From Candidatus Peregrinibacteria bacterium (GTDB lineage Bacteria; Patescibacteriota; Gracilibacteria; UBA1369; UBA12473), in NCBI GenBank assembly GCA_018659585.1, contig JABJMC010000017.1, positions 1 to 39,518 of the forward strand: a DNA stretch of 39,518 nucleotides, in the 5' to 3' direction. The notes under the pieces are model-generated. The model was not told the DNA's origin, searched no databases, and worked only from the letters and a program-made list of their open reading frames with translations. Both the position numbers and the translations under genes were made by a program. Positions 1,823 through 37,592 of the stretch are shown piece by piece (position 1 is the first letter of the stretch; each line of letters begins with the position of its first letter).

Positions 1823-2350
1823 ATGAGTAGTCTTACTACCCTTGACCCTGATGCAGGACGAGAGTCCTCTTCGGAAGAAGCACACAGGAAAGTTGATGGA
1901 GCAGCTCTTTTAGATGCAGCTTTGATTTCTTTTAATGTCACTGAACCTGATGCTGTTGATGAACCGGAGGATATTGCTGAGAAATGTAATCCATCAAAAG
2001 ATAGTGAAGAAGAAATTTTAGACGAATTAGATGGTGTTTCAAAAGGGTTAAGAACTGTTTTAGAACAGCCACAGTTTAATCCAAATTATATGCGGGAGGG
2101 CCAAGAAGCAGCGGCCAAAGTAGTAACTCGTTTGTTAAGAAAGCGCGGGTATGAAGCTACGACATTAGAAGAACCGCAACCAGGGATCCGAATGACTGAC
2201 TTGGAAGGATTTTTAACTGAGGCTCAAAAGCTAGTAATAGATTGGTTTGCGCAAGTAGAAGAGAATGGTGCTCATTTAAGTCTACGAACTATTTCTGAAG
2301 AAGTTGGTGACGTTCGAGCGATTATTGATGCTTGTTTAGAAAATAGATAA
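1823..2350 (+). CDS. unknown acidic protein, 175 aa
   Basis: I do not recognise this protein. The first 65 residues are acidic and probably disordered (SSSEEAHRK, DEPEDIAEK, DSEEEILDELDG). The rest (about 66-175) is predicted mainly helical, with two apparent helical units: QEAAAKVVTRLLRKRGYEA, and a C-terminal unit from the FLTEAQKLVIDWF segment to the end. There is no signal peptide or membrane segment, so it should be cytoplasmic. It is a single-gene unit with its own strong promoter (1764-1792) and a strong terminator (2352-2380), which suggests substantial expression. The ATG at 1823 fits the predicted transcription start about 24 nt upstream. No ribosome binding site is visible. The promoter and ACCCT leader link it to the other unknown genes here (15351-15731, 17644-21957). 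Confidence 0.75.
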   Translation: MSSLTTLDPDAGRESSSEEAHRKVDGAALLDAALISFNVTEPDAVDEPEDIAEKCNPSKDSEEEILDELDGVSKGLRTVLEQPQFNPNYMREGQEAAAKVVTRLLRKRGYEATTLEEPQPGIRMTDLEGFLTEAQKLVIDWFAQVEENGAHLSLRTISEEVGDVRAIIDACLENR

Positions 2351-2351
2351 A

Positions 2352-2380
2352 GCGGCCCGCAGAATTGGGGCCGCCTTTTT
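2352..2380 (+). terminator. rho-independent terminator after 1823-2350
   Basis: GCGGCCC (2352-2358) pairs with GGGCCGC (2368-2374) across a 9-nt loop, followed by TTTTT (2376-2380). The minus-strand reading is followed by a broken T tract (TTTATCTATTTT), so it may also stop transcription from the converging lipoprotein gene ending at 2437. Confidence 0.9.
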
Positions 2381-2436
2381 GAGGTGGTTTTTTGAGGTGG
2401 GGCGGAGGGGCGAGCGCTATGGACGCACGGATCGTG

Positions 2437-4509
2437 CTACCAGCTTTCGCCGTAGGGGCCGCCGTAGGCTCCTTTGTGATTGCGGGTTCCGTCGGAGTTG
2501 TTGTAGGAGGAACTGGAATTGCCGGCATTGAGGCAGGGAGATCCGGGCTGCAGAGTGAAGTCGTGGTTGGTCGGATCGGTGAAGAGCGGATCTTCGGTGG
2601 TGTTGCCGGTCCCCGGGGTGACGTAAACACTCCAATCACCATGATCGTTGTCATAGTTGGTGTTGTAGTCACTGGTCAGGGTGTAAGCGGGATCATCCAG
2701 GTGTAGGCCGTAGTAGGAATGCCCCATGAAAATGGAGTTTTCCACATGACCATAGCCGCTGGTGATCCAAACACCGCCATAGCCTTCGGAGTAGAAGACT
2801 GAGTTGTAGAGAGTGAACTCAGCGTCATTGCTGACATTCAGACCAGAATGGTCCGCATCCAACACAACCAGGTTGGATAACTCGGCTTGCGTGGTGGCCC
2901 CGCCCATCATGATCCCGTAACTATCAGCTCCTTCGATGCGGACGTTGTGTACGACCGCGCCGGGACTGTTTTCGATGATGATGCCCGTGTAGGACACGGT
3001 CACCGGAAGGTAGAGCTGACGCAGAGTGAGAGCAGCTCCGGTCATGACAATGACGCGGCCACCAACTCCATGCACGGTGAACCCCTCGAGAACCGTGGCG
3101 CTGGTCTCGTTGTTTTCAGCCAACACGGTTTGGTCGTACATGTCGGTTCCCACTCCGTAGAGATGGGTTGCCTCCCAGCCATCGAGCGAACGCACGGTGA
3201 TGTCTTCGCCGACAAAGACCAAGTCTTCGTAGTAGTTGCCAGCTTCCACGCACACGATTTCGGAGGTAACAGCCAAGTCAATGGCCTCCTGGATGGTGGA
3301 GATTTCGAGCGGGACCGTGTAGTCACAGTCGTTGGGGTCGGGGCAGAAATCGCTACTGGAGCAATCCTGATCAACCCCGTCGCACTCGATTTCGGTGGCG
3401 CTAGGGGAAATGGTGGCATCGGAGTCGTTGCAATCCCCACCATGTTCGGTGTAGCCATCCCCGTCATCGTCGTAACTGTCTGTGCCCTCGTCGATGAGGC
3501 TATCGCAGTCATTGTCCCAGGCATCTTCCTGTTCTGGGGCGCCGGGATAAATCTGCGAATGGGAGTCGTTGCAGTCTTCGCCAAGGCAATCCGCACCAAC
3601 TCCATACCCATCACCGTCGTTGTCGAGACAGTCTGGGGTGGTGTCGTCGTCAGACTGGGGATCTGAGTCGTCATCAGCCAGGTCGTCATCGCCCCAGGTG
3701 TCGTCGTCGGAGTCGCTGTCGTCGTCGCCGGGATCAACGTCATCGTCATCCCCCAACGGCTCGTCCGGCGACCCGTCCCCATCACAATCGATATAGCCAT
3801 GGTGGCCATACCAACAGCCAGTCTGAAAATCCACGTGTCCAGACATGGGCTCAGGCACCGCGCCATCACCGTCCTTGTAAAAGGCAAAATGAAGGTGCGT
3901 GCCAGGATGTTCGGGACAGGCGCTACCCAGCACATAACCCGAGTTTCCACACAGACCGATCACGTCGTTCTGCGTCACTTCCTGACCAGCGTAAACCTGG
4001 GCTTCATCAAAGTGGGCGTAACGGGACTTGTACCCCTGACCGTGATCAATGAGCACGTAGTTTCCGTAGCCATCATCGTCGTAGCCAACCACTTCCACGG
4101 TTCCCTCGCGGACCGGATAGATCGGCTTGCGCCAGGGATCGCAGCCCGCGAGCGCAAAGTCCAAGGCGTACCGATCATCGACCCAGTCGTAGCCGTAGTC
4201 CATGTGCGAGCCCTCGTTGTAGCTCCGCGTGAGCTGCCAAGCCTCCCCTTCCAAGAAAGGAAGCTGCAACTCGCTGGTCGGACCACCGACACCGTCGGCG
4301 TCGTCATCGGAACCCACGTCGTCATCCGAGAGCAGGTCGTCGTCGCCAAAGTCATCGTCGGACTGACTGTCATCATCGCCGTTGCTCTGACTCCAGTCTG
4401 GCTCGTCCACGTAGTCCTTGCCTCCGGCCTGGCCCGTGTTGCTGACACTCAGGCAGCCCGGCAAAAAGCCGGCCAACCACCAAATCACAATCCACTTGTT
4501 TTTGGGCAT
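2437..4509 (-). CDS. GC-rich lipoprotein: M23-like domain, Asp-rich MopE-type repeats, parallel beta-helix
   Basis: Predicted secreted lipoprotein of 690 aa. Residues 1-19 form a lipoprotein signal ending LPGC (lipidated Cys19). An Asp-rich stretch (44-72) leads to an M23/LytM-like domain (about 88-215) with ALDF, YGNYVLIDHG, YAHF and the paired zinc motif HLH (205-207). The HxxxD motif that normally supplies the first zinc ligand reads R113-Y-A-L-D117, so peptidase activity is uncertain. Next come a second Asp-rich tract (252-290) and two MopE-like metal-binding repeats (about 291-390: DNDGDGYGVGADC, DDDGDGYTEHGGDCND). About residues 400-690 form a right-handed beta-helix (TIQEAIDLAV, then repeating short strands). 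It follows the lipoprotein gene at 4987 by 22 nt. Base composition is clearly more GC-rich than all neighbours. Its start has a strong Shine-Dalgarno site, the only one I found here. Such architectures are familiar from Myxococcota and relatives, so I infer horizontal acquisition. Confidence 0.9.
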   Translation of the reverse strand: MPKNKWIVIWWLAGFLPGCLSVSNTGQAGGKDYVDEPDWSQSNGDDDSQSDDDFGDDDLLSDDDVGSDDDADGVGGPTSELQLPFLEGEAWQLTRSYNEGSHMDYGYDWVDDRYALDFALAGCDPWRKPIYPVREGTVEVVGYDDDGYGNYVLIDHGQGYKSRYAHFDEAQVYAGQEVTQNDVIGLCGNSGYVLGSACPEHPGTHLHFAFYKDGDGAVPEPMSGHVDFQTGCWYGHHGYIDCDGDGSPDEPLGDDDDVDPGDDDSDSDDDTWGDDDLADDDSDPQSDDDTTPDCLDNDGDGYGVGADCLGEDCNDSHSQIYPGAPEQEDAWDNDCDSLIDEGTDSYDDDGDGYTEHGGDCNDSDATISPSATEIECDGVDQDCSSSDFCPDPNDCDYTVPLEISTIQEAIDLAVTSEIVCVEAGNYYEDLVFVGEDITVRSLDGWEATHLYGVGTDMYDQTVLAENNETSATVLEGFTVHGVGGRVIVMTGAALTLRQLYLPVTVSYTGIIIENSPGAVVHNVRIEGADSYGIMMGGATTQAELSNLVVLDADHSGLNVSNDAEFTLYNSVFYSEGYGGVWITSGYGHVENSIFMGHSYYGLHLDDPAYTLTSDYNTNYDNDHGDWSVYVTPGTGNTTEDPLFTDPTNHDFTLQPGSPCLNAGNSSSSYNNSDGTRNHKGAYGGPYGESW

Positions 4510-4515
4510 TTTAGT

Positions 4516-4521
4516 CTCCTT
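4516..4521 (-). promoter_or_regulatory. strong Shine-Dalgarno site of the GC-rich lipoprotein gene
   Basis: AAGGAG on the minus strand, 6 nt before the ATG at 4509. It is notable because no comparably clear purine-rich site precedes the other starts in the window. It also confirms the chosen start. Confidence 0.8.
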
Positions 4522-4531
4522 TCATGAGATG

Positions 4532-4987
4532 TTAGCCCGTTCGGAACGATTGTTGGATCTGCGTCACCTGGTCTAAATGCCCTGGTGTTGTCGCTGAGTA
4601 ATAAGCACTAAACCCAATTATTTCCTCTCCTAAATTATAATAATAAACCTGAAAATCACTCATAAAACTACCTTTTTTTATCATAACTGGAAGGCCGTGT
4701 AATTCAACAAAATCTACGACCATTTCCAAAAAGTCGTCATCCAGTTCAAATCCAATTTGAAGTTGCTCAAAATCACTAGCTTGAGTCTCAAATAAAGCCA
4801 TTTTTAGGCTGGGATTTTCTAAAGAATCCCAAAATTGAACTTCGTCATGACTTTTGGTAACGCTCCAATCGACCGGATACTCCAATACAAATCGGTCATC
4901 TGGGTCCTGATAAATTAGAGTCTCCAAATCCGCTCGTATACAACCAACGAACGTTAATAAAACAATAATAAAAGTAAGTTTTTTCAT
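4532..4987 (-). CDS. small lipoprotein with PsbP-like domain
   Basis: Predicted lipoprotein of 151 aa. The ATG at 4987 gives a classic signal: MKK, a hydrophobic run and the lipobox TFVGC, lipidated at Cys16. An in-frame TTG at 5017 would add ten residues before the signal and is less likely. The mature part opens with DDRFVLEYPVDWSV, a pattern seen in PsbP-like and DUF1795-type lipoproteins (F-x-L-x-YP-x-x-W). It continues as a mixed alpha/beta domain, consistent with that fold. No catalytic residues can be named. It is upstream of and probably co-transcribed with the GC-rich lipoprotein (22-nt gap), but it has the AT-rich composition of the host genome and no Shine-Dalgarno site. A function at the outer face of the membrane is inferred only from the signal. 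Confidence 0.8.
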   Translation of the reverse strand: MKKLTFIIVLLTFVGCIRADLETLIYQDPDDRFVLEYPVDWSVTKSHDEVQFWDSLENPSLKMALFETQASDFEQLQIGFELDDDFLEMVVDFVELHGLPVMIKKGSFMSDFQVYYYNLGEEIIGFSAYYSATTPGHLDQVTQIQQSFRTG

Positions 4988-5035
4988 AAAATAATTTTTA
5001 AGGAGCCTATCTTTCAAAGGTCTTTTCTTAAATTC

Positions 5036-5044
5036 ATATTAGCA
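5036..5044 (-). promoter_or_regulatory. possible extended -10 promoter for the lipoprotein pair
   Basis: On the minus strand TGC followed by TAATAT (5044-5036), an extended -10 shape with no convincing -35. A start near 5029 would leave about 40 nt before the ATG at 4987. Confidence 0.35.
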
Positions 5045-5115
5045 ACTCTTCATTACGAAAACTTAAACAAAAAATGAACGGAAAATTAAAAAAACATGAA
5101 CAAATTCTTTCAAAA

Positions 5116-5144
5116 TTGTTCAAAACACTGATTTCCGCTATACT
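5116..5144 (+). promoter_or_regulatory. promoter of the ymdB-ctp operon
   Basis: TTGTTC (5116-5121), a 17-nt spacer and TATACT (5139-5144). Only 9 nt separate the -10 box from the ATG at 5154, so the leader would be about 2-4 nt and the mRNA nearly leaderless. Confidence 0.65.
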
Positions 5145-5153
5145 CCTCCCGTT

Positions 5154-5933
5154 ATGCGAATTCTATTTTTAGGAGACATTGTGGGTCGCCCAGGTCGAGA
5201 AGCCGTTAAAAAACTTTTACCGGCTATTAAAGATGAACATTCGCCACATTTTATTATTGCGAATGCGGAAAATGTAAGTCATGGCAAAGGTATGAATTCA
5301 CGACATTATGAAGAGCTCAAAAAAGCGGGGATTGATTTTTTTACATCTGGAAATCACATTTGGCAGCAGCATAATATTTTTGAAATTATGGATAAGTCAG
5401 AAACTGATATTTTAAGGCCAGCTAATTATCCCAAAGGAAATCCTGGTCGTGGCTATCGGATCGTGGAAGGTCCTTTAATGAAAAAAATACTTATAATTAA
5501 TTTGCAAGGAAGAGTTTTTGTAAAAGATGATTTGGATTGTCCTTTCCGTAAATTAGACGAAATTTTGGAGGAAACCCAAAGTGAAGATCTTGATTATATT
5601 TTTGTGGATTTTCACGCTGAAGCAACTTCTGAAAAAATCTGTTTGGGCTTGTATGCTGACGGACGAGTTTCTGCAATAATTGGCACTCATACACATGTGA
5701 TGACGGCTGATGAAAGGCTGCTCCCCAAAGGGACTGCTTATATTACGGATGCTGGTTTTGTGGGGCTTACTAATTCCGCCCTTGGAATTGATCCTGAACC
5801 GGTTATTAAACAATTTTTAACGCAAATGCCGGTTAAACATACTATTACCGAAGACTCGCCTGTTACTCTAAATGCCGTTATAATCGATTGCGAAAAAAGA
5901 GGAGCAACCTCTATAAAAAGGATTTATTCTTAA
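5154..5933 (+). CDS. ymdB: YmdB/TIGR00282-family metallophosphoesterase
   Basis: Calcineurin-like phosphoesterase of the YmdB family. In Bacillus the family hydrolyses 2',3'-cyclic AMP and influences RNA turnover and biofilm or colony behaviour. The metal ligands typical of the family are all visible: GDIVG (Asp8), NAEN (Glu39, Asn40), GNHIW (Asn67, His68), DFHAEATSEK (His154) and GTHTHV (His179, His181). The length of 259 aa is normal for the family. It is the first gene of a two-gene unit with the Ctp protease, whose start is 12 nt after this stop. The promoter lies so close to the ATG that the transcript should be almost leaderless. It is cytoplasmic, as no signal or membrane segment is seen. 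Confidence 0.93.
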   Translation: MRILFLGDIVGRPGREAVKKLLPAIKDEHSPHFIIANAENVSHGKGMNSRHYEELKKAGIDFFTSGNHIWQQHNIFEIMDKSETDILRPANYPKGNPGRGYRIVEGPLMKKILIINLQGRVFVKDDLDCPFRKLDEILEETQSEDLDYIFVDFHAEATSEKICLGLYADGRVSAIIGTHTHVMTADERLLPKGTAYITDAGFVGLTNSALGIDPEPVIKQFLTQMPVKHTITEDSPVTLNAVIIDCEKRGATSIKRIYS

Positions 5934-17643: not shown

Positions 17644-20600
17644 ATGCCCCCCTCAGAAGAGGGTGCTCCATCTGGCGCACCAGCAGCTAAAATTGCTATT
17701 CCAAAAAATATTCTGGCCGAAGAATTGGCAACAGAGGTTGTTACTAATGTTTCGAGCGATGTTCGAACAGCCGCGTCAGCGGTTGTGCAGGCTTGCCTTA
17801 CAGGAGGGAGCCATGTTCCAATGCGTAGAATTAATTATATTTTAACGCCTTTGACAGGAGAGGAGGAAGAGGTTGATGATTTTTGTGAACGTGTTTTGAA
17901 AGCGATTGAATCTGCGTGGCCTTCATTTTTTCATGTTTCATCCTCAGCTATTTGGATTAATGAGCCTCTGACTTTACCCGTGGAGCAACAAATTGCTGCG
18001 ATTCGTCGGGCTATGGAATTTGTGGATTCCGAGGCTGACCCCGAACAATTTGAAATGTCAGAGATTTCTTCTTTTGGAAAAACTATTCGCTTAAATATAG
18101 AACGGATTATGGGAATGGAAACTGCAAGTTCAGCGCCAAAAACAGAATTAAAAGCTTTAAATTTTCGGACTGATCAACATAACCGAATGGCTGCCCTCTA
18201 TGCCGAACAAGCCGTTCTTCTTGAAGATGAAGCAAAAGCTTTGCGTGATTTTGTACGTCGTCATGCAACTTTAGCCGCTCAATTTAGAGCCGAAGGAATG
18301 CAACTTGAGGATTTTCAAAGAAGAACTCCAGCAGAACCCGTGGTAAAACCAGTTGCAAAGGCCCCTCGAACCCCAGAAACCCAACACAAAATGACTGTTG
18401 GAGCCGATAGATTCAAAGCCGCACACGCTAGATATTTACTTAGAAAAGCTGCCAAATCTCAGCCTTTAGATGCTAAACTTTTACATCGACTTTTTGCGAC
18501 TATCCCAGGCTCCAAAGATGATAAAAAACGTTTTTGCCCTTCCGGGGATTTATTAAGAATTGCAAAAAAACCTAGTGAAAATTTAGGTGATGGGTTGGCT
18601 GCTAGCCGTATTTCACAGAGAATGAGAAAAGGTTTAAAACGTTTGGATGAAGTTTTTTCAGGCGCAATTATTCACGAGTCTAACAGTCGTAAACATCGCA
18701 TTGACCCAGAATGTGTAGATCAATTTTTGGACGTTGATTTGGAGGCTATTGCTGAAGATGCCATGGCCGAGGTCACCCCAGGCCTGCCAATTACGTCTTT
18801 TAAATTTCCTAAATCTTATACTATTTTAGGTCGAAAAATTTCTTTGGAAAAATTCCGTAAAGCCGCGGGGATGAATGATGATGAAGTTGCCACGGAAACG
18901 ACTTCCGGAGGCGACAGCCCAACAGAGCCGGTCGCCGGATCTCCGGCGGCCCCAACTCCTACCCCACAGCCCGAACCTGCGACACCTCCAACGCCCCAAG
19001 CTGCTCCAGCTAAGGCGGCCGAAGTGGTTGGAGATTTTCCTTTAAGGTTAATTTTCCGACGTCTTATGCCAGAATTAAGAGTTGAATTGGCTAGGAAAAT
19101 AGCCATCAAAAAAGTTGGTCCCCGTAGCTTGGTGTATGCGCCGGCCTTAGCTTTCTTTTTAGCGCGGCGTGATAATGAATTGCAAGTACCTTCAAAAGAA
19201 TTTGGACAATTCTTTTTGCAGTCAGGACAAACTTTAGAAAACACCACTACTAGGAGTATGGCTGAACAAAAAAAATATCAGACGAAGCTAGGAATTATGA
19301 AAATTGATCCGAGACTAATAACTCTTGTTGGGGCGCGCACTAAACATGCTACTTACGAGGTAGATGGCGATGTCGCCGAAGAATTATTGAAAATCGTGGA
19401 AGCAGAATTGCGAAAGCTCCCATCGCCGGTAATAATGCCTCAAGATGGCACACCTCCGCCTAGGAATGTTCCGGCAGCTGTGGCTGATGGCGAAGATGGA
19501 GATGATTTAGGTGGTGGGACTCCTCCGGTCGAACCGGCCGCAGAGCCTGCGGCAGCGCCAGCGGCCCCAGCCGAAGGTCATGACAAAATCATCCCTAGAT
19601 TAACTATGGCAGACATCCAATTAGCTTCGGCCGAGGCAATTGTGGCAAAATCTAAAGCTAAAAAACCAACCCCTTACTTTGCCTCAGCAATAGCTTTTAT
19701 TTTAGGGAAAACAAAGCCTGGAGAATTCTTTAAACCTGGCTTGTTAAATGCTGAAGTTTTGGCAATTCCAAACGATGTTGAGAGTCCGCCTCGTAGTGGC
19801 TCAATTGGGTCAAGACGGTCGCGGTGGTTTGAAGAAATGCATAGAGTTTTACCAGGATCACTTATAGATAATGGCGTAGAACGCGGTGGCAAAAGGCACG
19901 CTGTAAATACTGCTCAGCCCGACCTGTTAAGACTAGATGAACCCCTGGAAGGAGTGATGTTAGCAATGCGCAAAATTGATCCTAAACTCGAGATTCCGTT
20001 GGAAGAATGGACCTTACCAAAATCTTTTATAATTTTAGGAAAGAGAGTGACGATAGATAAAGCCAAATTGGCCGAAGTAATTGCGGCGGCACCACCTTTT
20101 GAAGAAGCCCCACCCCCACCTCCACCACCTCCTCCAAAAGGGGCAGAAAGGCCGCTTCCAAAAAATGCTAAATATTCTGGGCCCCACCAAAGACATTTTG
20201 TTGAATTGACTGACGAGGAACAATTAAAACTATGCGCCAAATTTATTAAAGATGTTTGCAAAGCTCCAAACTCTGTTGAGTTAACCCCATTTTTAAAGTT
20301 TATTCTTACGCGACATTCAAGAGATTTACGTGTAGGGATAGATAGAATTTCACCTCTGGTAGTTAAACCCGGAGAAGTTCTACAACCAAATGCTCTAACA
20401 AGCCGCCGAGGTGGAACTGTTAAACACATTCGCAACATTACAAAATGTAATTTAATTGAATTCGTAGCAGCACATAAATGTTATTGCATTGACTCTGAGC
20501 ACATTGAACGACTAGCAAAAATTGTTTTAGAGCCTATTGAAGAAGCGGCAGCAGCAACTGAAGCTGCGGAGGCAGCTAAAGAAGTAGTTGATCCGAATGA

Positions 20601-21957
20601 AGTTTTACAGAAAAAAGCTACGGCCCTTTTAGGAAGCTTAACTAAACCGGAACCAAAAAATGCCATAACTTATAATACAGAAAAAGGCGCTTTACTTGAT
20701 GTTTTAGCAGGAATGGATGAGGAAATTCGTGATGCCTGGGCAAAAGATTGGCAGCTTGATGTAACAGATCCTGCAGACATGATGACGGTTGAAGTGACTC
20801 CAAATAAAGGGGAGAAAATAGAAGTCTACCAAATTAGCTATGACTTAAAAGATCACGAATTAATTTTTATGTTGCGAGACGATGGACCAAGCTTATTGGA
20901 TGAGCCGCAACAGGAGGAACCTAAACCAAAAAAGAAGAAAGCTGCTCCCAAGAAAAAAAAGCCAGCCCCTAAGAAAAAGCCAGCACCAAAAAAACCGGCC
21001 GGAGAAGCCCTACCTCCACCCACAAAGCCTGAAATTGCGTCAGGCTCAACAATTACTTTTAGAATTCCAACAACAGGAATTGATCAAGAAGCACTTAAAG
21101 CTTCTTTTAGAGGAGCTTTTGGGGTGAATGAAACTGTTGAAACTTTGACTGCTTTTGTGTGTTTAGGAATAAATCAAGGTAAATTAGTTCAGCCAGAAAG
21201 ATTTGGATTAAGTGCTGAACCATTCAAAGAATTACACCGCCTTAGGCCAAAAATTGTTCATTTGTGGGATAGTGCCAGGGATGGATTAGGATTTTACGTG
21301 CCAGCGGCTGGTGAAGGCCCACCCCAACCTACTAAAAAATTCGATAATAATGATTTAAAAACTCTAGGATTAAACCGAATTAGACAAGGGGAGGTGCGAC
21401 AGTTAGGATCTTCCCATGGTCATGGACACCTAAATCATGAAGAAATGACTACTATCAGGATTTTATTGCTTTTATGGAAAGACCACGGAACTGATGCTGT
21501 TTTTGATCCCGAAAAATCTCCTGGAACTCTACGTCGAGATTTTATTCGATTCTGTGCTCGTTCTAATTTTAAAGATATCATTCAAAGAACCGAACATGGT
21601 TATCGATTCACTTCTGATCCAAGCGCAAAACTTGCATCTGGCTCTTCTCGGGCTGAGGATGACAAAGAAGCTAAACCACCGGCGGCGGCGCCTCGAGCTG
21701 CGTCCAAAAAACCTAATAATAACTGGGCTCCAACACATCGCTTAAATGGCTTAGGAAAGAAGGAATGTCCTGCGGTAGAAGAGGCTCAATTAAAAATCCT
21801 AAATGGTCCTACAGATCATGAAAAATATGCTGTTCTGGCTGCCGAACATAGAATTGCCGAAAGACCAGATCACCATTTAGTGGAATGGAAAATTGACGGT
21901 CGTAAGGGAGGAGTTATTGTTGTACATACTAACTGGATTGACGGTATCCCGCGGTGA
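17644..21957 (+). CDS. giant protein of tandem winged-helix-like modules with Pro/Ala/Lys linkers
   Basis: Cytoplasmic protein of 1437 aa with no family I can name. It is built from about seven diverged copies of one module: about 38-130, 250-410, 465-592, 646-815, 851-970, 1136-1226 and 1243-1333. Each copy has helices, then an amphipathic helix resembling the recognition helix of OmpR-type domains (RISQRMRKGLKRL, GTLRRDFIRFC). A wing-like hairpin follows (HGYRFTSD, HKCYCIDSE), and often a closing helix. Copies 2 and 4 share the tail PKS[YF][TI]ILG[RK][KR][IV][ST]. Linkers are disordered: Pro/Ala at about 426-462, 597-645, 818-839 (poly-Pro) and 1333-1360. A histone H1-like Lys/Pro/Ala tract is at about 1092-1121. 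A separate small domain lies at about 985-1085, and a unique C-terminal domain at 1360-1437. Multivalent DNA binding or nucleoid organisation is my inference. The gene stands alone behind a strong promoter. Confidence 0.7.
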   Translation: MPPSEEGAPSGAPAAKIAIPKNILAEELATEVVTNVSSDVRTAASAVVQACLTGGSHVPMRRINYILTPLTGEEEEVDDFCERVLKAIESAWPSFFHVSSSAIWINEPLTLPVEQQIAAIRRAMEFVDSEADPEQFEMSEISSFGKTIRLNIERIMGMETASSAPKTELKALNFRTDQHNRMAALYAEQAVLLEDEAKALRDFVRRHATLAAQFRAEGMQLEDFQRRTPAEPVVKPVAKAPRTPETQHKMTVGADRFKAAHARYLLRKAAKSQPLDAKLLHRLFATIPGSKDDKKRFCPSGDLLRIAKKPSENLGDGLAASRISQRMRKGLKRLDEVFSGAIIHESNSRKHRIDPECVDQFLDVDLEAIAEDAMAEVTPGLPITSFKFPKSYTILGRKISLEKFRKAAGMNDDEVATETTSGGDSPTEPVAGSPAAPTPTPQPEPATPPTPQAAPAKAAEVVGDFPLRLIFRRLMPELRVELARKIAIKKVGPRSLVYAPALAFFLARRDNELQVPSKEFGQFFLQSGQTLENTTTRSMAEQKKYQTKLGIMKIDPRLITLVGARTKHATYEVDGDVAEELLKIVEAELRKLPSPVIMPQDGTPPPRNVPAAVADGEDGDDLGGGTPPVEPAAEPAAAPAAPAEGHDKIIPRLTMADIQLASAEAIVAKSKAKKPTPYFASAIAFILGKTKPGEFFKPGLLNAEVLAIPNDVESPPRSGSIGSRRSRWFEEMHRVLPGSLIDNGVERGGKRHAVNTAQPDLLRLDEPLEGVMLAMRKIDPKLEIPLEEWTLPKSFIILGKRVTIDKAKLAEVIAAAPPFEEAPPPPPPPPPKGAERPLPKNAKYSGPHQRHFVELTDEEQLKLCAKFIKDVCKAPNSVELTPFLKFILTRHSRDLRVGIDRISPLVVKPGEVLQPNALTSRRGGTVKHIRNITKCNLIEFVAAHKCYCIDSEHIERLAKIVLEPIEEAAAATEAAEAAKEVVDPNEVLQKKATALLGSLTKPEPKNAITYNTEKGALLDVLAGMDEEIRDAWAKDWQLDVTDPADMMTVEVTPNKGEKIEVYQISYDLKDHELIFMLRDDGPSLLDEPQQEEPKPKKKKAAPKKKKPAPKKKPAPKKPAGEALPPPTKPEIASGSTITFRIPTTGIDQEALKASFRGAFGVNETVETLTAFVCLGINQGKLVQPERFGLSAEPFKELHRLRPKIVHLWDSARDGLGFYVPAAGEGPPQPTKKFDNNDLKTLGLNRIRQGEVRQLGSSHGHGHLNHEEMTTIRILLLLWKDHGTDAVFDPEKSPGTLRRDFIRFCARSNFKDIIQRTEHGYRFTSDPSAKLASGSSRAEDDKEAKPPAAAPRAASKKPNNNWAPTHRLNGLGKKECPAVEEAQLKILNGPTDHEKYAVLAAEHRIAERPDHHLVEWKIDGRKGGVIVVHTNWIDGIPR

Positions 21958-21984: not shown

Positions 21985-23268
21985 ATGAGTTTAATTACGG
22001 ATTTGCATATTCATTCACGGTTTTCTCGGGCGTGTAGTCGGAGTTTGGACCTGCCACACATTGAGGCGTGGTGTCAGCTAAAAGGAATTGATTTGGTGTC
22101 GACTTCGGATTTTACGCACCCCACGTGGTTTAAGGAATTGAACGAGCAGCTAGAGGAGGTGGATACTGGGGTTTATCGGGTTCGCGAGGAGTTTAGGGAT
22201 CAGGCGTCGGATGTAATTGTGCCGCCAAGTTGTCAGCGTGATGTGCGATTTTTGTGTTCTACTGAAATTAGTTTGATTTACAAACGGCATGATCGGGTGA
22301 GGAAGGTGCATTTGATTGTGTTGGCGCCGGACTTGGAGACTGTGGCCAAGATAAATATTGAGCTGGATAAACGGGGAAATGTGAAGTCTGATGGACGGCC
22401 GATTTTGGGACTGGATAGTGAGGAGTTGTTAAAAATCTTGCTAGATATTTCGCCGGATATCCAGCTGATCCCGGCGCATATTTGGACGCCGTGGTTTGCA
22501 ATTTTTGGGTCGCAATCTGGGTTTGATTCGGTAGAGGAATGTTTTGGGGATTTAAGTGATCATATTTGTGCGTTGGAGACTGGGTTGTCGTCAGATCCGC
22601 TGATGAATTGGCGATTATCAGATTTGGATAAGTATGTTTTGGTGTCGAGTTCGGATGCGCATTCGCTAGGGAAGTTGGGGCGCGAAGCCACGGTATTTGA
22701 TACGGAGTGCACGTACCCGGCCGTACTGGATGCTTTGCGGAATGATCATTCTAAAGTAGCGGGGACTATTGAATTTTTTCCGGAAGAAGGGAAATATCAT
22801 GCGGACGGCCTTCGCGCTGAAAAATTACGTTTGGAGCCTGATGAGACGCTGGCGTGTGATGGAATTTCACCAAAAACTGGTAAGAAAATTACGGTGGGAG
22901 TTTTACATCGTGTGAATAAGTTGGCAGATCGGAAAATGGGTACTCGACCGGACACGGCGCGTGATTTTTGGCATATTATTCCGCTAATTGAAATTGTGTC
23001 AGAAATTGTAGGAATGGGAGTAGCCAGTAAGCGCGTACAAAGCCGTTATTTTTCTTTGCTCGAAAAACTGGGGTCTGAATTTTATATTTTAAAAGACGCC
23101 CCAATTGCTGATATTTCGGCGGCTGATGAATTAGTAGGAGAAGCGATCCGTCGCATGCGCGAAAGTAAGGTTATTATTCAACCAGGTTATGATGGTGAAT
23201 TTGGCGTTATTAAATTGTTTTTTCCCGAAGAATTAAAAAATTATGGAGGACAGGGGGCGCTGTTTTAA
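21985..23268 (+). CDS. endonuclease Q-like PHP-domain protein
   Basis: A 427-aa PHP-domain nuclease of the TIGR00375/EndoQ group. The group cuts DNA 5' of deaminated bases (uracil, hypoxanthine) or abasic sites in Thermococcales and some bacteria. The PHP motifs open the protein: TDLHIHSRFSRACS and LVSTSDFTHPTWF. Further ligands are IPAHIWTPWF and SSSDAHSLG. The central signature TVGVLHRVNKLADR is typical of the family. The zinc knuckle normally just before it (a CPxCG motif) reads SPKTG here, with only a single Cys seven residues or so upstream, so this site appears degenerate. The C-terminal tail (GYDGEFGVIKLFF) resembles UvrD/EndoQ tails. Transcription is probably leaderless. The 3' end faces the Fic gene with a 5-nt gap. 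Confidence 0.88.
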   Translation: MSLITDLHIHSRFSRACSRSLDLPHIEAWCQLKGIDLVSTSDFTHPTWFKELNEQLEEVDTGVYRVREEFRDQASDVIVPPSCQRDVRFLCSTEISLIYKRHDRVRKVHLIVLAPDLETVAKINIELDKRGNVKSDGRPILGLDSEELLKILLDISPDIQLIPAHIWTPWFAIFGSQSGFDSVEECFGDLSDHICALETGLSSDPLMNWRLSDLDKYVLVSSSDAHSLGKLGREATVFDTECTYPAVLDALRNDHSKVAGTIEFFPEEGKYHADGLRAEKLRLEPDETLACDGISPKTGKKITVGVLHRVNKLADRKMGTRPDTARDFWHIIPLIEIVSEIVGMGVASKRVQSRYFSLLEKLGSEFYILKDAPIADISAADELVGEAIRRMRESKVIIQPGYDGEFGVIKLFFPEELKNYGGQGALF

Positions 23269-23273
23269 AAATT

Positions 23274-24329
23274 CTAGAAATAATTTTCAACTACAAATTT
23301 GTACTGATTCAAAAATAATTTCTTGAAATACGAAATATTATTTTGCTCATAAAATAAAAGTACTGCTTTTTTATATTCGAGCTCATCAATACTTCTATAA
23401 GACAAAGGACAACAATCGTGCGCCAAAAGAATAGCGTTACCCATGAGACGACTGGTTCGTTTATTTCCATCTATAAAAGGCTGAATATAAGCAATTAAAA
23501 GCATCAGCATAATTGCTTTGGTAAAAGGATTTTTTTCTTTATTTACCAAAACCGCGGTCGCCTCTAAAGCCTCATTAATCTGAAATTTATTATCAAGCGG
23601 CGTATAGGCTGTTCCTGTAATTCGAACCAGTATTTTCCTTACATTTTTTGAAATATTCAAATCGCCCACTAACAATGAATGAACTTCAACAATCTTTTTT
23701 AAAGAAATCTCTTTAAATTCCGTTAAATTGTTTCTTAAATAGTCTAGTGTTTTTTTATGATTCAAAATCATAATCGCCTCCTCTTTGGAATGATTTTTGG
23801 CTTCGTGATTTTCCTTTATTAATTGTTCGGTCTCCAGCAAAGAATAAGTATTCCCCTCAATTTTCGAAGACTTCCAACTTAGCTCAATTGTTAAACGTTC
23901 AAATTCTTTTTTTATTATTTCTGGTGGGAGTTTTTTGATTTTTGATTGATAAGAACGGTTTAAATTATTCAAAAACACCTTTTCTTCATTAGTTAGAATC
24001 CCCCTTAATTCATCAAAAACATTAAAATTAAAGCTTTTTTTAATCTCACGTTTATCAGGTTCAATTTTAAAATACTCTTCAACATCAATTTCCTTGCTAA
24101 CCAGTGATTGCGGCGAAAGTTCATAAACCAGTGCTCGCCCAGCTCCCTTCATCACCAATAACTCTAAATCAACCAATTTTCTTAAATCACGGTTGATAGT
24201 AATTTTTGCAGAGGTATTTTCGATTCTTTGGAAAAATTCAAAAATTCGAGATACCGAAGAGGTACCATTTTGGGCAACAAAATCGAGAATTTGATCCTGG
24301 CGTTTATTTAATCTTATATCTTTAAACAT
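23274..24329 (-). CDS. Fic-family protein with N-terminal winged helix and variant catalytic motif
   Basis: A 351-aa protein. A DNA-binding winged helix at residues 5-72 (KRQDQILDFVAQNG, ITINRDLRKLVDLELLV) precedes a Fic domain (about 140-345). The autoinhibitory helix motif [ST]xxxE[GN] is present as S154-SKI-E158-GN, so this is the class with an N-terminal inhibitory helix. The catalytic motif, normally HPFxxGN[GK]R, reads Q283-PFIDGNKRTSR. Glutamine replaces the histidine that activates the target hydroxyl, so classical AMP transfer may be lost or altered. The promoter holds a palindrome and direct repeats that look like a binding site for the protein itself. It could be a self-regulated AMPylator, a degenerate copy or a pure regulator. 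Confidence 0.88.
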   Translation of the reverse strand: MFKDIRLNKRQDQILDFVAQNGTSSVSRIFEFFQRIENTSAKITINRDLRKLVDLELLVMKGAGRALVYELSPQSLVSKEIDVEEYFKIEPDKREIKKSFNFNVFDELRGILTNEEKVFLNNLNRSYQSKIKKLPPEIIKKEFERLTIELSWKSSKIEGNTYSLLETEQLIKENHEAKNHSKEEAIMILNHKKTLDYLRNNLTEFKEISLKKIVEVHSLLVGDLNISKNVRKILVRITGTAYTPLDNKFQINEALEATAVLVNKEKNPFTKAIMLMLLIAYIQPFIDGNKRTSRLMGNAILLAHDCCPLSYRSIDELEYKKAVLLFYEQNNISYFKKLFLNQYKFVVENYF

Positions 24330-24333
24330 AAAA

Positions 24334-24374
24334 AATCATATCATTAAAGCACTCTAATCATATCATAAGTGATA
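24334..24374 (-). promoter_or_regulatory. probable operator of the Fic gene
   Basis: Direct repeats AATCATATCAT at 24334-24344 and 24356-24366 begin 22 bp apart, about two helical turns. A perfect inverted repeat TATCA/TGATA (24361-24365 and 24370-24374, 4-nt gap) overlaps the second. The elements cover the -10 box, the spacer and the start region of the promoter. Confidence 0.6.
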
Positions 24375-24385
24375 CGATTTTTCAA
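24357..24385 (-). promoter_or_regulatory. promoter of the Fic gene
   Basis: Minus strand: TTGAAA (24385-24380), 17-nt spacer, TATGAT (24362-24357). Start expected near 24350, about 20 nt before the ATG at 24329. Confidence 0.7.
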
Positions 24386-24432
24386 TATACCTAAATTATG
24401 ATACATTACGCTCAACTTGTAAGCAGCCTTCC

Positions 24433-26328
24433 ATGTTAAATGAGCAGCAAAAACAGGCGGTGGAAACTTTCGATGGGCCGATTCGCGTTTTAGCGGGAGC
24501 TGGAACAGGGAAAACGCGTGTTTTAATTTCACGCGTGGGGCACATGATCAAAACTAAAATTGCGGATTCGCAGGAAATTTTGATTTTAACTTTTACAAAT
24601 AAAGCGGCCCAGGAATTAAACGAAAGATTAGAAAAAGCAGAATTACCACGGGTGCACGCCACAACTTTTCATGGTTTAGCCGCTGGTTTATTACGAAAAC
24701 ATTGGAAACCAAAGTTCAAAATTATTTCGCAAAAAGAACAGGAAGATGCTCTGCATGAAATTGTTTATTCGCACGAACGAGAAGACTTAAAAAATGTAGT
24801 TGAGGATTTTAATAATGTCCGTCAGGCAGCGGCGTGTGAAGCAGAATGGCCAAAGCTTTTATCGGTTTGTTCATTGGAACGATTTGGAGAAATTTGGAAA
24901 GCTTATTATGGAATTTTGGAAGAGCGAAACGCTATGGATTTTACAGGTTTGTTAACGACTTTATTGCAGTTATGGAAAGACAAGCCAGAAGTTCTGCAGG
25001 CGTGCCAAGATCGCTATAAATATGTGTCAGTAGATGAGTATCAAGACGTGTCCCCAATCCAAGATTTTTTGATAAATAAATTAGTAGAAAACCACAAAAA
25101 TATTTGCGTGGTAGGAGACCCTGATCAAACTATCTATTCTTGGCGGGGCGCGCGGGCCCAAACAATGGATGATTTCATCAAGACCTATCCCCGCGCGCAA
25201 ACCATCACCCTTACAAAAAACTATCGAAACTCGGCCCACATTCTTCACGGTGCCGAAACTCTAATCAAAAACAATACAAACCGAATTGAAAAACCATTAG
25301 AACCAACTCTAAACGGAGAACAACCTATAACTTTATTTGAAAATCGGGATGAATGGCAAAATAACGAGGTTATTTTCTATCTGTTAGAACAATTCTTTGG
25401 CAGCCATGACCATATGGCCTCAGCCGACCAATTAGACTCTGGCCGCGACGCTGATTGCCGATCTTTTTCCGATATCGCAATTTTGTATCGAACTAAACAC
25501 GAGGGCCGCCAAATTGCGACTCACTTAGAGCAACGCGGCTATCCTTATCAAAAGTCTTCCATGCCAGACTTCTGGGAGCACCGGGATATTGAACGGTTTT
25601 TAGAAAAACTCCGTGCCATGCAAGAAGCCGGCACTTTGCCGACCGCTGACGCAGAGCCCGCAACCGCCACAGCCGAATCCGCACCCCCCGAATCTACGGC
25701 TGACGCTCCTGAGTCGGCCGCAACAGAACCGATCGCTGGCGCTTCCGAATCGGCCGCCGCCAATTCGCAACCGGCACCAAATCCCACACCTCAAAAATTC
25801 AGTGACTGGTTTCGTGATCAACTCAACAAATTTATTTGGAACCAAAGCATCCCAGAAAGCAAAGCCGAACGACTCAATCAACTCCTGGCCCACGCCATGA
25901 AATACGATCATTTCTCGATCGAAGAAGGGGTAGCTAACTTTTTAGACGAGGCCGAAACCGCGCAAGAAGTAGATAATTTAATTTACGCCGACCGCATAAA
26001 TCTCCTCACTTTACACGCGGCCAAAGGTTTAGAATTCCCAATTGTAATTATTGCCGGCTTAGAAGAAGGAAATCTCCCGCACAAAAAACTCCTAGATGAC
26101 GAATATTGGCTAAACGAAGAACGCCGTTTAATGTACGTGGGCATGACGCGCGCCGCTGAACAATTATATCTGTTAACAGCCCGTGGTCGCGACTCTAAAC
26201 AGCAAGAACCATCTCGTTTTATTGCCGAAATTGGCACAGACCATTTAACTTACGGCCAACTTCCCGAAAGACGCGCCATTACCAGCCGCCGCAAACAAGT
26301 TAAAAAAGCACAGACAAAGTTGTTTTAG
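24433..26328 (+). CDS. UvrD-like helicase with 2B region largely replaced by an Ala/Pro linker
   Basis: Second SF1A helicase of the window, 631 aa. All ATPase motifs are intact: I AGAGTGKT (21-28), Ia LTFTNKAAQEL, II VDEYQD (about 201), III VVGDPDQTIYSWRG, IV KNYRN, V LTLHAAKGLEF (about 525), VI NEERRLMYVGMTRA (about 560). Between the YPYQ segment and motif V there are only about 154 residues. Roughly 55 of these (about 398-453) are a low-complexity Ala/Pro/Ser/Glu/Thr stretch. The usual TPPRGIG-type 2B core is missing, whereas the helicase at 1-1692 has it. There is also no Tudor-like tail; it ends in a basic segment. It starts at the ATG at 24433, about 30 nt after a possible -10 TATGAT (24397-24402), divergent from the Fic gene. 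Confidence 0.92.
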   Translation: MLNEQQKQAVETFDGPIRVLAGAGTGKTRVLISRVGHMIKTKIADSQEILILTFTNKAAQELNERLEKAELPRVHATTFHGLAAGLLRKHWKPKFKIISQKEQEDALHEIVYSHEREDLKNVVEDFNNVRQAAACEAEWPKLLSVCSLERFGEIWKAYYGILEERNAMDFTGLLTTLLQLWKDKPEVLQACQDRYKYVSVDEYQDVSPIQDFLINKLVENHKNICVVGDPDQTIYSWRGARAQTMDDFIKTYPRAQTITLTKNYRNSAHILHGAETLIKNNTNRIEKPLEPTLNGEQPITLFENRDEWQNNEVIFYLLEQFFGSHDHMASADQLDSGRDADCRSFSDIAILYRTKHEGRQIATHLEQRGYPYQKSSMPDFWEHRDIERFLEKLRAMQEAGTLPTADAEPATATAESAPPESTADAPESAATEPIAGASESAAANSQPAPNPTPQKFSDWFRDQLNKFIWNQSIPESKAERLNQLLAHAMKYDHFSIEEGVANFLDEAETAQEVDNLIYADRINLLTLHAAKGLEFPIVIIAGLEEGNLPHKKLLDDEYWLNEERRLMYVGMTRAAEQLYLLTARGRDSKQQEPSRFIAEIGTDHLTYGQLPERRAITSRRKQVKKAQTKLF

Positions 26329-26439: not shown

Positions 26440-27585
26440 ATGTCGGCTGATACGCTTCGAACTGAACAACTTGAACAAGGTGCGCATTTAATGACGGCTG
26501 AGCCTTATCTAACAGCGGCATCTCAGGTTATTTTAGACGCCCGATTTCAACATTTACCGCGTTATGCTGAACGAGGCCTAGGAGCGCTGATGGCGGCGAT
26601 GGATTTAACGCAAGAAGAGTTTCGTGCGTTTTTAAACAAATATATTGTTGGGCCAAAGGTTAATCCTGCTCGCCAGGGTTATTTTGTATTAAGAGCCCGA
26701 CGACTTTTAACTGAACGTTGTGATTTTGTGGATGGGGAATCTAAGACCGGCCCCCTTTCCCTAAATGCTGATGAATTTCCATCTTTAGATGTCGAAACTA
26801 CTCAAAACATTACTAGATTAGCTTCAATTCAATGGCTGGCGCAGGTTAATGCCGAAGGCCGGGCGCAGTTTATTCAAACTATTGACGCGGAGCTGACCTT
26901 AACTGAAGACGAAAAAATTCTTTTAAATGAATTACTACTTCGTCCCGGACATATTTTTTCTACTAACGCCAAAACTGCCACCCCTCATTTGGACCGCAAA
27001 ACCCGTAATATTGTTCTGGTCACATTAGCCAGAAAAATAAATAAATTATTTGGTGAAGCGATGATTACTTGGCATCGACGTCAGGTTTATTATGAGGCGA
27101 CAGATAAACTTATAGCCGAGGTTCCGGGACTATCGATAGATGATTTAATAAGTACACATGAAGAACGATTTGGCCCTCACCTACCGCTTTCTGCTTATCT
27201 TTTTAAAACTCCAAACTTTAGCGGTGCCCAAAAAATTGCGGCCCTAAATGCGGTTTTAGAAAATTTAGAAACTCAATTTAGAGAAGTAGCCGGATTTGAA
27301 GAAACCCACGACAGACTCATGAGTGCTGCCGCACAAAAGTTACCCCGATCCAGACCCCGAAAATCCGAAACTTTGATCCGAGTTAAATTTTCCAAAAATG
27401 GCCCACACGAACACGATCTACCCCGAGGACTGAGACAAGTAAAAGATCCCTTACCAGACATGTTTGCCTCAACCGAAGAATTATTTACTTTTGACCGCCC
27501 TCCAGAAAAAAGAGAGCCAACCCAGACAATTATTGAGCAAAGAATTACCGAAAGATTGATTCGAAGGCGGGTGGTTCCAGATTAG
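26440..27585 (+). CDS. unknown 381-aa protein with winged-helix-like modules
   Basis: No named family. It contains two units that resemble the repeating module of the giant protein at 17644. The first (about 28-100) has RGLGALMAAMDLTQEEFRAF and GYFVLRARRLLTERC. The second (about 150-227) runs LTEDEKILLNELLLRPGH, then DRKTRNIVLVTLARKINKLF, then a hairpin with ITWHRRQVYYEA and a closing helix. That is the same order of helix, recognition-like helix, aromatic/His hairpin and closing helix. The C-terminal third (about 300-381) is rich in Pro and charged residues, including SRPRKSETLIRVKF, and ends in a basic helix. It has its own promoter and an ACCCT leader without a Shine-Dalgarno site. DNA binding is inferred. 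It ends 3 nt from the converging gene at 27589. Confidence 0.65.
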   Translation: MSADTLRTEQLEQGAHLMTAEPYLTAASQVILDARFQHLPRYAERGLGALMAAMDLTQEEFRAFLNKYIVGPKVNPARQGYFVLRARRLLTERCDFVDGESKTGPLSLNADEFPSLDVETTQNITRLASIQWLAQVNAEGRAQFIQTIDAELTLTEDEKILLNELLLRPGHIFSTNAKTATPHLDRKTRNIVLVTLARKINKLFGEAMITWHRRQVYYEATDKLIAEVPGLSIDDLISTHEERFGPHLPLSAYLFKTPNFSGAQKIAALNAVLENLETQFREVAGFEETHDRLMSAAAQKLPRSRPRKSETLIRVKFSKNGPHEHDLPRGLRQVKDPLPDMFASTEELFTFDRPPEKREPTQTIIEQRITERLIRRRVVPD

Positions 27586-36374: not shown

Positions 36375-37592
36375 TTAGTTTAACTTTCCCAAACGTTGAA
36401 CACGAGCCATCCCACCACCGGCCCCGTTTCTAAGATGAGTTTTATCAAATTTTGTCCAACCAAAATGAGATGTTTCACTGGTGTCTGAAATCATTCTTGG
36501 ATGAATCCAAACATCTGGATGGCAAGGCTCAAAAACATAAGGTTCAAAAGCTTCTGACTCTCTAACTGCGGCCATTAACTCTTCTATTTTTCTGTACTGT
36601 TTTCTGCTTACTTTGCAGCCAGTTCTAACGCCTAATAATCTTTGGGCTTCTGTTCTCGGACAACCATAGGCCTTTACTACCTCATCAACCATAACGGCAA
36701 CTACTTCTTTATTTAAGTATATTTTGTCATTCACAAAAAACGGATCTTCTTTTAAAAAAATTAAAACATCATCTAGCCCTACGCGAATTTCATTAAGAGT
36801 TTGAATGTCACCAATTACTTCGCCCCTTTTTAATCTTTCCAAAAACAACTGAATTGTGCCTTTATATAAATCTGTTAATTGAGCTAAAACATGGTAGAGA
36901 TCTTTTTTTGTAATAGTGCGATTAATAGCTTGGATTTCAGCTATGCGTTCTAAATGATCACCAAGTAATCCTAGCTCTGAGGAACGTGACGCCGGGAAAA
37001 TCTCTTGGCCACTAGCCACTGAACAGCAAATTGCTACTAACGCTATTTGAATTCTTTTGTTTGGTTTACGTAAATCGCGGGAAACATCTTCGAAATTCGA
37101 ACCTGTAATATGCGATACAGCTCCAATAAGACGCCTTTCTGTACAGTGCGGGGCAAGAGCTTTTATTCTATCAATTAAATGACCATTATCAGCTTCTATT
37201 AAGTCGTCTTTTAGGGGTTTTCTCTTTCTTTTGGGTTTTCTAGGTTCTCTAGGCTTGATCTTACGAATTGGTTCTTGCTTTAAATGCACAAGATCACCAG
37301 GGCGGAGGGGAGCAACCCTAACGATATCTAATATTTGTTCTAATATTTGCTCTAGTTTTTTTCGAGCTTCTAAAAAAGTTTCATAAACTATGTCATTAGG
37401 CTTAAGCGGGCTAAATAAAAAATCACGATCTTTAGGCGTAAGTCCTAATAATTTTCCTACTACACCAGCTACATCTTTTTTAATTAACCCATATTCAGCG
37501 CGAAGAATATTGTCTAATAGTGCCGGTACCGGGTCGGCCTGTATAAATTCTTCGCTTATAATAATTTTTCCTATTTGTTTTAAATCGCTCAT
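36375..37592 (-). CDS. unknown 405-aa protein with basic central linker
   Basis: Not recognised. An N-terminal helical domain (about 1-100: IISEEFIQADPVPALLDNIL, KKLEQILEQILDIVRV) is joined by a strongly basic Pro/Lys/Arg linker (about 108-128: KIKPREPRKPKRKRKPLK). A long helical region follows (about 130-260: IDRIKALAPHCTERRLIGAV, ITKKDLYHVLAQLTDL). A unit at about 295-345 looks like a helix-turn-helix (VVAVMVDEVVKAYGCPRTEA, then QRLLGVRTGCKVSRKQYRKI). The tail (about 350-405) is Gly/His-rich with PDVWIHPRM and GAGGGMARVQRLG. The basic linker and helix-turn-helix suggest nucleic-acid binding, which is inference. It begins 11 nt after the stop of the upstream gene and is in one operon with it. 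No Shine-Dalgarno site is seen. Confidence 0.65.
   Translation of the reverse strand: MSDLKQIGKIIISEEFIQADPVPALLDNILRAEYGLIKKDVAGVVGKLLGLTPKDRDFLFSPLKPNDIVYETFLEARKKLEQILEQILDIVRVAPLRPGDLVHLKQEPIRKIKPREPRKPKRKRKPLKDDLIEADNGHLIDRIKALAPHCTERRLIGAVSHITGSNFEDVSRDLRKPNKRIQIALVAICCSVASGQEIFPASRSSELGLLGDHLERIAEIQAINRTITKKDLYHVLAQLTDLYKGTIQLFLERLKRGEVIGDIQTLNEIRVGLDDVLIFLKEDPFFVNDKIYLNKEVVAVMVDEVVKAYGCPRTEAQRLLGVRTGCKVSRKQYRKIEELMAAVRESEAFEPYVFEPCHPDVWIHPRMISDTSETSHFGWTKFDKTHLRNGAGGGMARVQRLGKLN

Follow-up and report, generated by a model that had tools for sequence, protein, structure and literature searches.

An orphan protein of 1437 residues from a Peregrinibacteria genome with a duplicated two-module cassette: a possible multivalent DNA-associated scaffold

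What is encoded by a bacterial gene whose very long product matches no known family and yet seems to repeat itself? The question is raised by P0001, a protein of 1437 residues encoded by a stop-free open reading frame at 17644-21957 (+ strand, as for all P0001 features below) of the window, meaning the whole 39,518-nucleotide stretch of a Candidatus Peregrinibacteria contig that was analysed. Candidate-phylum bacterial genomes contain large orphan proteins without assigned function. An earlier note had read this one as about seven diverged copies of a single winged-helix-like unit. The frame obtained a synonymous codon score of 0.102, inside the reference range of 0.056 to 0.215 given by the window's conserved genes, and the remaining five frames at the locus scored -0.163 to 0.039. 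Synonymous codon choice is host-like in the P0001 frame alone, and a shadow reading frame or frameshift artefact was ruled out by codon usage. No family match was found in Pfam or NCBIfam at permissive thresholds, and comparison with solved structures by sequence gave no convincing match. Neither a signal peptide nor a transmembrane segment was seen, no stretch being sufficiently hydrophobic for a membrane helix.

Internal similarity was examined by pairwise Smith-Waterman comparison of ten P0001 segments and three segments from neighbouring proteins (78 pairs, 600 shuffles each). Two pairs stood far above the shuffles: m2 (18388-18858) with m4 (19579-20079), with z 11.6 and p 2e-7, and m3 (19018-19401) with m5 (20176-20541), with z 10.8 and p 5e-7. 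The earlier note had also paired copies 2 and 4 and copies 3 and 5, and the motifs that it quoted for them are all present, namely PKSYTILGRKIS (residues 389-400, the C-terminal end of m2) and PKSFIILGKRVT (792-803) for the first pair, and FFLARRDNELQV (504-515) and FILTRHSRDLRV (886-897) for the second. At the level of sequence the two similarities are a single duplication of a two-module cassette, A-B, because residues 247-587 can be aligned with 646-966 in one piece across the linker, with a semi-global score of 211 against 65 +/- 12 (500 shuffles, maximum 107). Copy 1 of the cassette (18382-19404) consists of module A (m2), a Pro/Ala linker and module B (m3), and copy 2 (19579-20541) of module A' (m4), a Pro linker and module B' (m5). 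The two cassettes are 28% identical, which looks old and is in tension with the lack of any known orthologue of P0001.

The remaining modules could not be tied to the cassette. Modules A and B are not significantly related to each other (p 0.026 uncorrected), and significant self-alignment between segments was found for the two module pairs only. Candidate modules 1 (residues 38-130; 17755-18033), 6 (residues 1136-1226; 21049-21321) and 7 (residues 1243-1333; 21370-21642) showed no significant pairwise similarity to the other copies, nor were they found with profiles made from copies 2-5 and two related modules elsewhere. Since these three are unlinked to the cassette and A and B reach only p 0.026, the "about seven copies" of one recurring unit are, judged by alignment, a reading of secondary-structure rhythm without demonstrated homology. 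Four modules, forming two pairs, survive from that count, and the idea of seven equivalent copies was rejected. Residues 131-247 resemble segment mC with an uncorrected p of 1.6e-4, and are Ala-rich. The disordered linkers proposed between modules have their counterpart in Pro/Ala-rich linkers.

Modules weakly like B were found in a second orphan protein of the window (37604-39517, - strand), which is cut by the contig end. It contains two in tandem: z1 (38891-39280), which compares with m3 at p 0.003 and with m5 at p 0.004, and z2 (38351-38770), which resembles z1 at p 6e-5. Reciprocal profile searches between the z modules and B gave E 0.025-0.035, the top match among other window proteins. 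Because z1 and z2 resemble each other and weakly B, P0001 and the second orphan may form a small family within this genome, which the similarities suggest without proving. No additional copy turned up when the whole genome was searched with a profile, and direct reading of about 250 kb, or 18% of it, showed no further member. Directly downstream of the second orphan lies another orphan, a basic protein of 405 residues (36375-37592, - strand), whose weak matches to AbiP (E 0.006) and HrpB1 (E 0.02) are probably due to chance.

The fold of the cassette modules was approached with AlphaFold models of m4 and m5, each built from an input in which the modules were aligned to one another. The m4 model (mean pLDDT 45) has the order H-H-H-E-E-H, that is, three helices and then a beta hairpin after helix 3. 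When it was compared with known structures by VIA-align, 17 chains reached Z>=5, the best at 6.9 and all under 7, a range flagged by the tool as possibly reflecting a mere common arrangement. Read from their titles and ranges, the matched chains are winged-helix domains: those of MukF, JetB, the cohesin kleisin C-terminus, AfsR, ToxR, CadC and PhoB, and further those of ORC, Cdt1, LexA, MarR-type proteins, cullin WHB, linker histone H1/H5, Stn1 and NLR proteins. The argument for module A lies in the uniformity of this list, each single Z falling in the inconclusive range. Such a list is not automatic for any helical model, because the matches of the m5 model, obtained by the same procedure, were mixed and none was confident. 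That model (mean pLDDT 55, order H-H-H-E-H-H-E-H) shows the three-helix core with a hairpin in part, its helix-strand order being compatible with a winged helix at low confidence; eS19 ribosomal proteins, which contain a winged-helix-type domain, recur among its weak matches at Z about 3, and it is too poor to use. Foldseek gave no significant match for either model, viral structures included, and for m4 no E below 0.19 against the PDB. The winged-helix fold put forward in the earlier note is thus supported, not proven, for module A by the m4 model and its match list, and module B is without a confident match. Both cassette modules most likely adopt winged-helix folds; for B, as for copies 1, 6 and 7, we infer the fold.

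From these observations, P0001 is tentatively read as a cytoplasmic, lineage-restricted, multivalent DNA-associated scaffold whose winged-helix modules bridge or hold DNA, with a probability of about 0.4. The central half of the chain would have arisen through the internal duplication of the two-module cassette. The basic modules, carried on long flexible Pro/Ala linkers and accompanied by a histone-H1-like Lys/Pro/Ala-rich linker, would allow one chain to contact DNA at several points, whether the contact partner were DNA itself or a DNA-bound partner. Such a protein would bridge or hold DNA, unlike a classical one-site regulator. The reading is favoured because of the block duplication, the winged-helix list of m4, the basic charge of the repeated modules (+11, +6, +5 and +2, with m2 at about +11), the KPA-rich linker PKPKKKKAAPKKKKPAPKKKPAPKKPAG (residues 1093-1120, 28 residues; 20920-21003), the lack of a transmembrane segment and the position of an endonuclease Q gene 27 bp downstream. 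It is weakened by the low confidence of the models, Z values under 7, a net charge of only +5 for the whole protein, the acidic parts (module 1 and residues 1004-1084) and an endonuclease Q neighbourhood that is not conserved for the P0001 gene and in which endoQ may have a promoter of its own. We infer DNA binding and the bridging role, and the earlier note's "multivalent DNA-binding or nucleoid protein" is plausible, with the basic modules and the KPA-rich linker in its favour. Rather improbable is the bolder proposal of a new kind of large, multivalent DNA-bridging protein confined to one Peregrinibacteria lineage, with up to seven diverged winged-helix modules, an H1-like linker and at least one related partner in the same genome.

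Linker histone H1/H5 offers one comparison for a DNA-bridging scaffold, as P0001 combines a Lys/Pro/Ala-rich tract with probable winged-helix-type domains, and the H1/H5 globular domain matches the m4 model at Z 4.4-4.6. A Lys/Pro/Ala-rich tract like that of P0001 also occurs in the bacterial H1-like proteins AlgP and Hc2 (PMC9239181, PMC2848022). Unlike in these proteins and the linker histones, the tract of P0001 is a 28-residue internal linker and not a long tail, and P0001 has several diverged modules and no sequence homology to them. If P0001 is a multivalent winged-helix scaffold, it would illustrate how a small genome, through duplication within a gene and the lengthening of linkers, can arrive at a protein for DNA organisation or assembly beside the single HU-type protein detected in it. 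If it is not, the case gauges how far a visual winged-helix reading can be trusted, being right on the duplicated pair and unproven for the rest.

The genes around P0001 give a lead rather than evidence of function. The gene downstream (21985-23268, +) encodes endonuclease Q (PfuEndoQ, PDB 5zb8, E 5.6e-46; TIGR00375), which is described as a DNA endonuclease acting at deaminated bases (PMC4357722), and any link of P0001 to repair through it is such a lead. The 27-bp gap contains TATAAT with an upstream TG, because of which endoQ may have its own promoter. In many relatives a UvrD-type helicase gene directly follows endoQ, and here the UvrD/PcrA-like helicase is encoded at 24433-26328 (+). A recognisable P0001 ahead of endoQ was seen at none of the 12 loci examined. 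The lineage looks like Peregrinibacteria: for the endoQ neighbour, the best named match is in a Peregrinibacteria genome (68% identity), and a RuBisCO large subunit gene is also present in the window. Within 21985-26328 endoQ is separated from the helicase by a Fic-family gene (23274-24329, - strand) that lies in an AT-rich stretch. Elsewhere in the window, a gene resembling those for M23 peptidase, MopE-like and beta-helix lipoprotein-like proteins (2437-4509, - strand) was probably acquired recently, because its third-position GC is 0.70 as against about 0.25-0.45 in the other genes measured. In a relative (locus L037), two adjoining proteins (2199-3653 and 3668-5392) with recurring units of ~75-85 residues (ALAEHGIHDR..TL, FPPWGKG) lie next to what appears by eye to be a large SNF2-like helicase; they are unrelated to P0001.

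Winged helices often bind proteins rather than DNA, as in kite proteins and cullins. The main rival to the scaffold reading is accordingly that the modules make protein-protein contacts in the manner of the kite proteins ScpB and MukE or of cullin WHB, so that P0001 would be an assembly platform and itself not DNA-binding. The highest Z values of the m4 model, for MukF and JetB, both winged-helix domains of SMC complexes, speak for this, although the Z differences are within ties, and so do the acidic copies and the near-neutral overall charge, although the basic charge of the repeated modules and the KPA-rich tract point the other way. P0001 resembles kite proteins (ScpB, MukE, JetB) and the winged helices of the kleisins MukF and Scc1 in its probable tandem winged-helix modules, but its chain is far longer, with long disordered linkers, and has no sequence match to them. 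No SMC-related family was matched by sequence, the ScpA, ScpB, MukE and MukF profiles among Pfam and NCBIfam being without a hit in P0001, and no kleisin or SMC partner gene was seen in the window. On balance this account is doubtful.

The distribution of P0001 bears on a further alternative to a DNA-associated scaffold, namely a rapidly evolving orphan with another function, for example in anti-phage defence or host-cell interaction, or as what is left of a mobile element outside the sampled ones. Its helical modules would then look like winged helices only in a low-confidence model. No relatives were found among the 353 genomes available for the class, with a cassette profile among 380 genomes sampled across the phylum, or in IMG/VR, phage and plasmid sets. 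Exact-peptide patterns of P0001 found none in GTDB contigs, such pattern-based scans detecting close relatives only. As far as the searched sets show, P0001 appears as an orphan restricted to its lineage. This absence favours the alternative, as do the gene's absence from the endoQ locus of the 12 relatives and the 28% identity of duplicates for which no orthologue is known. Conversely, no defence model was matched, codon usage is native and not foreign, and the m4 structure comparison is uniform and not random, and we consider the alternative unlikely. Several candidate leads were set aside. Possible relatives in genomes G269 and G086 (E 0.002-0.005 over the 353 genomes) were within chance; L034_6677_9148 lay near noise in the module profiles (E 0.07-0.4), its layout not shared by eye; a phage or plasmid origin was rejected, there being no matches in those sets, and a defence system likewise, with no PADLOC match; and PHROG 13246, "replisome organizer" (E 0.003 on residues 797-873), was put down to composition, as the span includes a Pro-rich linker.

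Least probable, and already disfavoured, is a transcription regulator derived by multiplying an OmpR/PhoB or ToxR/CadC effector domain: visual inspection suggests the order H1-S1-H2-H3-hairpin for copies 2-5 and for copy 7, the m4 model weakly matches ToxR (Z 5.0), CadC (4.9) and PhoB (4.7), and short stand-alone PF00486 proteins are common in the order, but PF00486 finds no match in P0001 at E<=10, nor in the last module alone, and a profile of 28 OmpR-type domains from the same order, run with filters off against P0001 segments, other proteins and reversed decoys, ranked no P0001 module. Membership in OmpR/PhoB was rejected on these two profiles. The earlier note's remark that the last copy "strongly recalls" this family fails every sequence test run, although its motifs GTLRRDFIRFC (1294-1304) and TEHGYRF (1316-1322) are present and it rightly saw no receiver, for which Pfam and NCBIfam gave no match anywhere in P0001. 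PF00486 does match one bona fide regulator in the same genome, on contig C9. Unlike OmpR/PhoB and ToxR/CadC proteins, P0001 has neither receiver nor transmembrane part and carries several modules per chain. The N-terminal four-stranded sheet before helix 1, a feature of OmpR effector domains, is absent from the m4 and m5 models, both of low confidence. A fold like that of OmpR/PhoB without membership is possible.

OmpR-like features were also observed outside P0001. Many genomes of the same order contain stand-alone PF00486 winged-helix reading frames of about 100-140 residues, too short for a receiver domain. In the window, an orphan protein of 381 residues (26440-27585, +) contains a stretch that looks OmpR-like on visual inspection (LTLTEDEKILLNELLLRPGHIF). 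In the PDB, the ECF sigma factor SigL is a weak match to the N-terminal part of this protein (E 0.0099), and a CreB model reaches E 0.08 against the protein.
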